NCBI GenBank assembly: GCA_020152595.1
Contig: JAIGNY010000872.1
Location: 732,001-796,000 of the forward strand
DNA length: 64,000 nt
Direction: 5' to 3'
Source of the DNA: Chiridota heheva
Taxonomy: Eukaryota > Echinodermata > Holothuroidea > Apodida > Chiridotidae
The notes under the pieces are model-generated. The model saw only the letters and a program-made list of their open reading frames with translations. It was not told where the DNA came from and ran no database searches. A program made the position numbers and the translations under genes. This document shows, piece after piece, positions 3,589 through 58,999 of this stretch (its first letter is position 1; each line of letters begins with the position of its first letter).

Positions 3589-3815
3589 CACAATGCAAGT
3601 GCCATGCTCATGGTGATCCCCATTTCCAAACCTGTGATGGAAAGAGGTTTGACTACCAAGGCGAGTGTGCCTACGTTCTGGCCACAGACGGATGTAATGG
3701 AAAGGCCCCTACATTTAGGGTGCTCATCGAGACAGACCCATACTCACGAAACCCAAAAGCAAAAACAACAAAGAAGGTTACCCTTGAAATGTATGACAAT
3801 GGACAAGTTGTTGAG
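3589..3815 (+). CDS. Exon 1 of window: start of VWD domain 1
   Basis: Follows a TTCTAG acceptor and ends before GTATGG. It enters in phase 1 and leaves in phase 0. It encodes [14 protein letters not shown] followed by [12 protein letters not shown], the classic first strands of a von Willebrand factor D domain. The GDPH at 3612-3623 matches the Asp-Pro autocleavage motif known from some mucins. It is the counterpart of the exon at 27768-27988. Confidence 0.9.

Positions 3816-58999: not shown

Follow-up and report, generated by a model that had tools for sequence, protein, structure and literature searches.

The closest described counterparts of the gene reported here, which lies in a 64,000-nucleotide stretch of DNA from the holothuroid Chiridota heheva (the window, C868:732001-796000), are as follows. 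Sfp1 and Sfp2 of Asterias rubens are secreted, cysteine-rich, self-cleaved proteins with VWD, C8, EGF and four F5/8C domains (PMC9382459, PMC7037938). Sfp1 has 3,853 amino acid residues, cuts itself into four subunits and carries a FAMeT domain (PMC9382459). The papers disagree about its lectin, which is listed as a C-type lectin beside the four F5/8C domains in one (PMC7037938) and as a galactose-binding lectin, of the SUEL type in one paper, in others (PMC4275877, PMC6410801, PMC10057474). Hemocytin and hemolectin are VWF-type proteins with a discoidin (F5/8C) domain (PMC4015701). The alpha-tectorin-like adhesive protein of sea urchins and the flatworm protein Mlig-ap1 combine VWD-C8-TIL, EGF and lectin domains (PMC10057474, PMC6410801). 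In D10 of FCGBP (IgGFc-binding protein), changing D4080 or the His of a GDPH motif stopped or inhibited a cut, changing Q4094 weakened it, and the pieces from the GDPH cut are disulphide-linked afterwards (PMC10880436).

The domains found at the Chiridota locus, and the kind of protein they make up, are known; by its domain order and by a doubled module the protein is an unusual variant. The reading that we consider fairly probable is that of a single intact gene, about 86 kb long with 30 exons found, whose product is a secreted precursor (about 2,013 residues, 223 kDa) with a signal peptide, two copies of the module and two further F5/8C domains, a precursor that would cut itself and cross-link glycans.

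Gene structure and the doubled module

The assembly searched has 1.1 Gb in 3,744 contigs. Exons were derived from stop-to-stop open reading frames and a base-level reading of the splice sites. Twenty-seven of the 30 exons of the roughly 86-kb locus lie inside the window, on its plus strand, and join to 5,474 bases of a single open frame, from base 3589 to a TAA stop ending at 58999. An earlier note on this DNA had claimed an intact gene with these 27 exons in matching phases, and its exon count and coordinates are right: the exons have GT donors at 26/26 and AG acceptors at 27/27 sites, their phases are consistent, and the joined frame has no internal stop. Shuffles of the same bases (n = 200) have a mean of 106 stops and a minimum of 81, and the +1 frame of the joined exons has 171. 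The 1,825 residues given in that note are correct as codons including the stop, that is, 1,824 residues. Exon 1 starts in phase 1, its first codon split with an upstream exon, and has no start codon; the window truncates the 5′ end of the gene.

Two of the missing exons were found when the 50 kb upstream of the window (loci L009-L013) were searched by tblastn with the joined protein. One encodes a fourth C-type lectin domain, CTLD0 (window -5809..-5402, C868:726191-726598, plus strand, phase 1-1), and the other an EGF domain (window -3993..-3883, C868:728007-728117, plus strand, phase 1-1). The protein therefore has at least four CTLDs, and the count of three lectins made earlier arose because the window edge cut off CTLD0.

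With these two exons, exons 1-22 of the window form two copies of a 12-exon, eight-domain module, CTLD-EGF-VWD-C8-TIL-EGF-F5/8C-CTLD, arranged in tandem. The corresponding exons have identical phases in 12/12 pairs, and in 12/12 the partner in the other module ranks first. All exons lie on the plus strand, and the pairs are as follows, first copy before second. The module opens with the CTLD, CTLD0 and exon 11 (CTLD2, 21544..21948, phase 1-1), followed by the EGF, the upstream exon and exon 12 (23566..23691, phase 1-1). The VWD spans four exons, namely its first part with a GDPH self-cleavage motif (exons 1 and 13, 3589..3815 and 27768..27988, phase 1-0), its middle (exons 2 and 14, 5177..5290 and 30432..30542, phase 0-0), its end, with CGLC in VWD1 and CGIC in VWD2 (exons 3 and 15, 6693..6851 and 32568..32726, phase 0-0), and the VWD-C8 junction (exons 4 and 16, 7766..7925 and 34071..34245, phase 0-1). 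The C8 (exons 5 and 17, 8452..8640 and 34830..35006, phase 1-1) and the TIL (exons 6 and 18, 8826..9022 and 35189..35400, phase 1-0) come next, and then the second EGF, which is EGF_3 in exon 7 (9490..9661) and EGF_3-like in exon 19 (36020..36194), both in phase 0-1. The first and second parts of the F5/8C are in exons 8 and 20 (no. 1 at 11616..11869 and no. 2 at 42345..42682, phase 1-0) and in exons 9 and 21 (12561..12702 and 43152..43290, phase 0-1). A CTLD closes each copy, CTLD1 in exon 10 (14747..15121) and CTLD3 in exon 22 (46315..46692), both in phase 1-1. Beyond the two modules lie F5/8C no. 3 (exon 23, 47450..47781, phase 1-0, and exon 24, 54844..54997, phase 0-1) and the short F5/8C no. 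4 (exon 25, 55925..56139, phase 1-0, and exon 26, 57573..57707, phase 0-0). Exon 27 (58967..58999), ten codons and the TAA stop, is the least supported; whether exon 26 is spliced to it or read through, the protein would stop a few residues later. When the 30 kb downstream of the window were searched by tblastn with the joined protein, no further 3′ exon came up.

The claimed mix of VWD, C8, TIL, EGF, F5/8C and CTLD domains was recovered by Pfam in the window part of the protein. Both VWDs (7.7e-26 and 3.8e-27) and both C8s (4.2e-9 and 2.4e-6) matched, as did EGF, three Lectin_C and four F5_F8_type_C domains. The two TILs were found only below the Pfam cut-off (5.8e-5 and 4.8e-4), and the EGFs of exon 12, taken alone, and of exon 19 are also below it. 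The four F5/8C domains of the domain order given before stand, and the order itself consists of the larger part of a doubled module, followed by a tail.

The first exons of VWD1 and VWD2 are each other's best match in the genome (96.5 bits, 60% over 73 amino acids), the next match for them being at 51.0 bits (47% over 64 amino acids). In a 14-row tree of VWD first exons the two are sisters with support of 91/96, a value below the 95/80 at which the tool awards a star. The L018 row of this tree was excised at the wrong position and carries no information, and L019 sits on a long branch. The gene was built by doubling an eight-domain block.

A candidate for the first exon, MRLWISLLVLFLVALA, lies about 27 kb upstream of the window (window -27293..-27245, C868:704707-704755, plus strand), with a GTAAGT donor in phase 1. 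It is the sole candidate on the gene's strand in an upstream scan for hydrophobic exons that start with ATG and have a phase-1 donor, and its hydrophobic core, 3.56, is the highest of the six stretches scanned, its own included (the next is 3.27). Weaker chance matches at the same threshold number 10 on the opposite strand (eight come from a single repeat); the two strands of the window have 2 and 0, and those downstream 2 and 1. This exon is likely to encode the signal peptide. The full model predicts a precursor of 2,013 residues, 222.7 kDa and pI 4.8, with 5.7% Cys.

A rival view is that the exons are divided among two or more transcripts, or that the gene is decaying. The locus is 86 kb long with repeat-rich introns, four decoy acceptors stand ahead of exon 13, and the window, too, contains hydrophobic ATG-starting stretches that have a phase-1 donor, for example those ending at 14615 and 55231. 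However, the 26 internal joins keep phase with no frameshift or stop, and each exon of one module copy has its match in the other. Since an in-frame stop occurs in the last exon only and the phases run through continuously, two genes are unlikely, and we regard a split or decaying locus as very improbable. Nor was a duplicate locus or haplotig found: exon 1 with 74 intron bases, used as a DNA query against the genome, gave one full-length match, and the 39 other matches listed are repeat pieces of 33-45 bases from the intron part. For the single intact gene, the open frame and the retained motifs suggest that it is under selection.

Cleavage motifs and sugar-binding domains

In both VWDs GDPH is present, with a Gln at position +14 from its Asp, the same spacing as that between D4080 and Q4094 in FCGBP D10. 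A Cys precedes GDPH in both, a candidate for the residue that would tie the first strand to the rest after the cut, and that of VWD1 aligns with the FCGBP Cys. The best sequence match in the PDB for both VWD-C8-TIL assemblies is FCGBP. Because whole-chain FCGBP scores sum repeated assemblies, single-stretch chains were compared separately: D assembly 1 scores 120.9 bits with FCGBP 8r0t_B versus 87.9 with mucin-2 7prl_A, and D assembly 2 scores 90.6 bits with FCGBP versus 69.1 with mucin-5B 8oer_C. Unlike this protein, FCGBP has 13 D assemblies, and neither lectin nor F5/8C is named in the accessible part of its description.

Given GDPH and the helper Gln in both VWDs, three disulphide-held chains are predicted. 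During passage through the secretory pathway, each VWD would cut itself at the Asp-Pro bond of GDPH, and the resulting chains, of about 20.5, 93 and 107.5 kDa, would still be joined by disulphides. GDPH is found in nine of the ten best-scoring VWD exons read elsewhere in the genome, the tenth having GGPH, and two further outside exons have SNSH and SGAH (paralogues L017-L019 and L022-L031 were read in part). GDPH is thus common among the VWDs of this genome and does not by itself mark the gene out.

The EPN and WND motifs mark the Ca-dependent sugar site of C-type lectins. Both are kept in two of the four CTLDs, CTLD0 and CTLD2; CTLD3 has lost EPN and keeps WND, and CTLD1 has lost both. The best PDB match of CTLD2 is mannose-binding protein A (5.4e-21), in an alignment that spans both motifs. 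CTLD2 resembles that lectin in EPN and WND, but the CTLDs here sit between D assemblies, and two of the four copies have not kept both motifs. F5/8C no. 3 is nearest to factor VIII and neuropilin.

Two EPN-type lectins and four F5/8C domains would bind sugars or surfaces, and such binding could cross-link glycans or glycoproteins to form the matrix of a mucus, cuticle, adhesive or clot. Together, GDPH with its Gln, the FCGBP match, the EPN and WND motifs and the likeness of F5/8C no. 3 make a secreted multivalent glycan-binding scaffold the best-supported proposal from sequence. That is, the product is probably a secreted, self-cut, sugar-binding net protein.

Relation to Sfp1, hemolectin and other adhesive proteins

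The earlier note likened the gene to Sfp1 and to hemocytin and hemolectin. Were the protein the Sfp1 (or Sfp2) of this species, it would be a cohesive protein of echinoderm tube-foot glue. VWD-C8, EGF and F5/8C are shared, the number of F5/8C domains, four, is that reported for Sfp1, a C-type lectin is listed for Sfp1 in one account (PMC7037938), and predicted self-cleavage would be in common; TIL is present here only under the cut-off. The Cys content of about 5% and the acidic pI reported for Sfp1 also compare well with 5.7% and 4.8. In contrast, neither a SUEL lectin (PF02140) nor FAMeT (PF12248) was found in this protein by Pfam at E<=0.1, the level at which all domain absences were judged, and none lies on contig C868 among the 35 SUEL and 50 FAMeT genome matches listed. 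The model has 2,013 residues versus 3,853, and two GDPH sites versus the three cuts needed for four subunits, although it may lack 5′ exons; Sfp2 is reported with one. Because the SUEL lectin and FAMeT are absent, the protein is not Sfp1 by domain content. Compared by description, it also differs from Sfp1 and Sfp2 in being about half as long, in its two predicted cut sites (three chains), its four CTLDs and its doubled module. We consider the Sfp1 identity improbable.

Other contigs carry SUEL, FAMeT or both alongside VWD exons: among the matches listed, SUEL and VWD exons share C297 and C1562, and FAMeT and VWD exons share C1562, C2179 and C3228. These are better places for an Sfp1-type gene, sharing of a contig being no proof of one gene. 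At C297:56096-91920, SUEL, TIL, F5/8C and VWD exons lie close together, with TIL, F5/8C and VWD within 7 kb, and this is a candidate Sfp1-type gene.

On a second proposal, the protein would act in the body fluid, in clotting or cell aggregation, much as hemocytin or hemolectin do, and would combine a VWD net with surface binding by F5/8C and capture of microbes by the lectins. The combination of a VWF-type protein with a discoidin domain is that of hemocytin and hemolectin (PMC4015701), and the EPN lectin resembles mannose-binding protein. The D assemblies, however, number two and have a better-scoring match in FCGBP than in VWF. Hemocytin and hemolectin have a VWF-like array with VWC and a C-terminal cystine knot. 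No VWC or cystine-knot family matched the protein at E<=0.1, and it ends after F5/8C no. 4; in addition, its CTLDs alternate with D assemblies. VWD together with F5/8C is shared, but placing the protein with hemocytin and hemolectin is not supported, and a clotting factor of this type seems unlikely to us, if less so than an Sfp1. The two other adhesive proteins also differ from the Chiridota protein: SUEL lectins but no F5/8C are listed in the accessible description of the urchin alpha-tectorin-like protein, and Mlig-ap1 is described with a single CTL and a single VWD-C8-TIL, together with 17 EGFs and KR-rich regions.

The earlier suggestion of a distinct family member is supported. It is tempting to go further and tentatively propose that secreted net proteins of this self-cleaving kind form a family of their own, not described before, that arose by tandem module duplication and is distinct from Sfp1 and hemolectin. 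Each GDPH cut would fall just after a sugar-binding lectin-EGF pair and leave that pair at a chain end, and the product would be a disulphide-held multivalent lectin cross-linker. The doubled module was not found in known proteins in the literature searched, most subscription papers being outside reach and animal sequence databases not covered. The protein may be annotated in animal databases under another name.

Repeats, VWD expansion and biological meaning

The introns are packed with repeats, as had been said: tandem arrays make up 24% of intron bases, in 14 of the 26 introns, versus 1.1% of exon bases, and retroelement pieces occur too. The decoy acceptors form a tandem array (27191..27767, plus strand, in steps of 124-136 bp) of four incomplete repeats of the last part of intron 12 joined to the start of the GDPH exon, exon 13, and each of the four leads to a stop. 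Over 120 bp, the copies at 27252 and 27644 do not differ from the true sequence, and the 27376 copy has GDLH. The array is either a young minisatellite of splice acceptors or an assembly error.

Ten open frames were scanned for retroelements, and four matched pieces of non-long-terminal-repeat elements: an endonuclease (36836-37270, 1e-10), two RVT_1 pieces (38723-39400, 3.2e-6, and 63678-63998, 1.6e-5) and an RNase H (39863-40420, 0.003). No retroelement match was obtained for the frames at 16817-17470, 38003-38260, 51458-52848 (three frames) and 55818-56459 on the minus strand. At 44458-45821 a 24-bp unit is repeated about 58 times, and a 340-residue minus-strand open frame at 44836-45858 very likely owes its existence to this array. 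The interval from the signal-peptide candidate to CTLD0 holds, at window -22000 to -10600 and -9800 to -9200, about ten copies of a tandem repeat of about 1.06 kb, with recurring open reading frames, and a long (TA)n run. The tRNA and Rfam searches gave 0 matches. COX1, sought in the assembly so that the mitochondrial code could be compared with that of echinoderms, had no match either. VWD exons are expanded in the genome, with at least 151 matches and clusters of up to about 280 kb, on contigs C1562, C2067, C3378, C2179, C406, C3412 and C1784.

Wet adhesives, mucus and clots draw on the same few domains. Lectin heads set beside self-cutting D assemblies through the doubling of one module would show clearly how valency is gained in glues and nets, and the protein offers a specific candidate to assay for adhesive or immune function in this animal.
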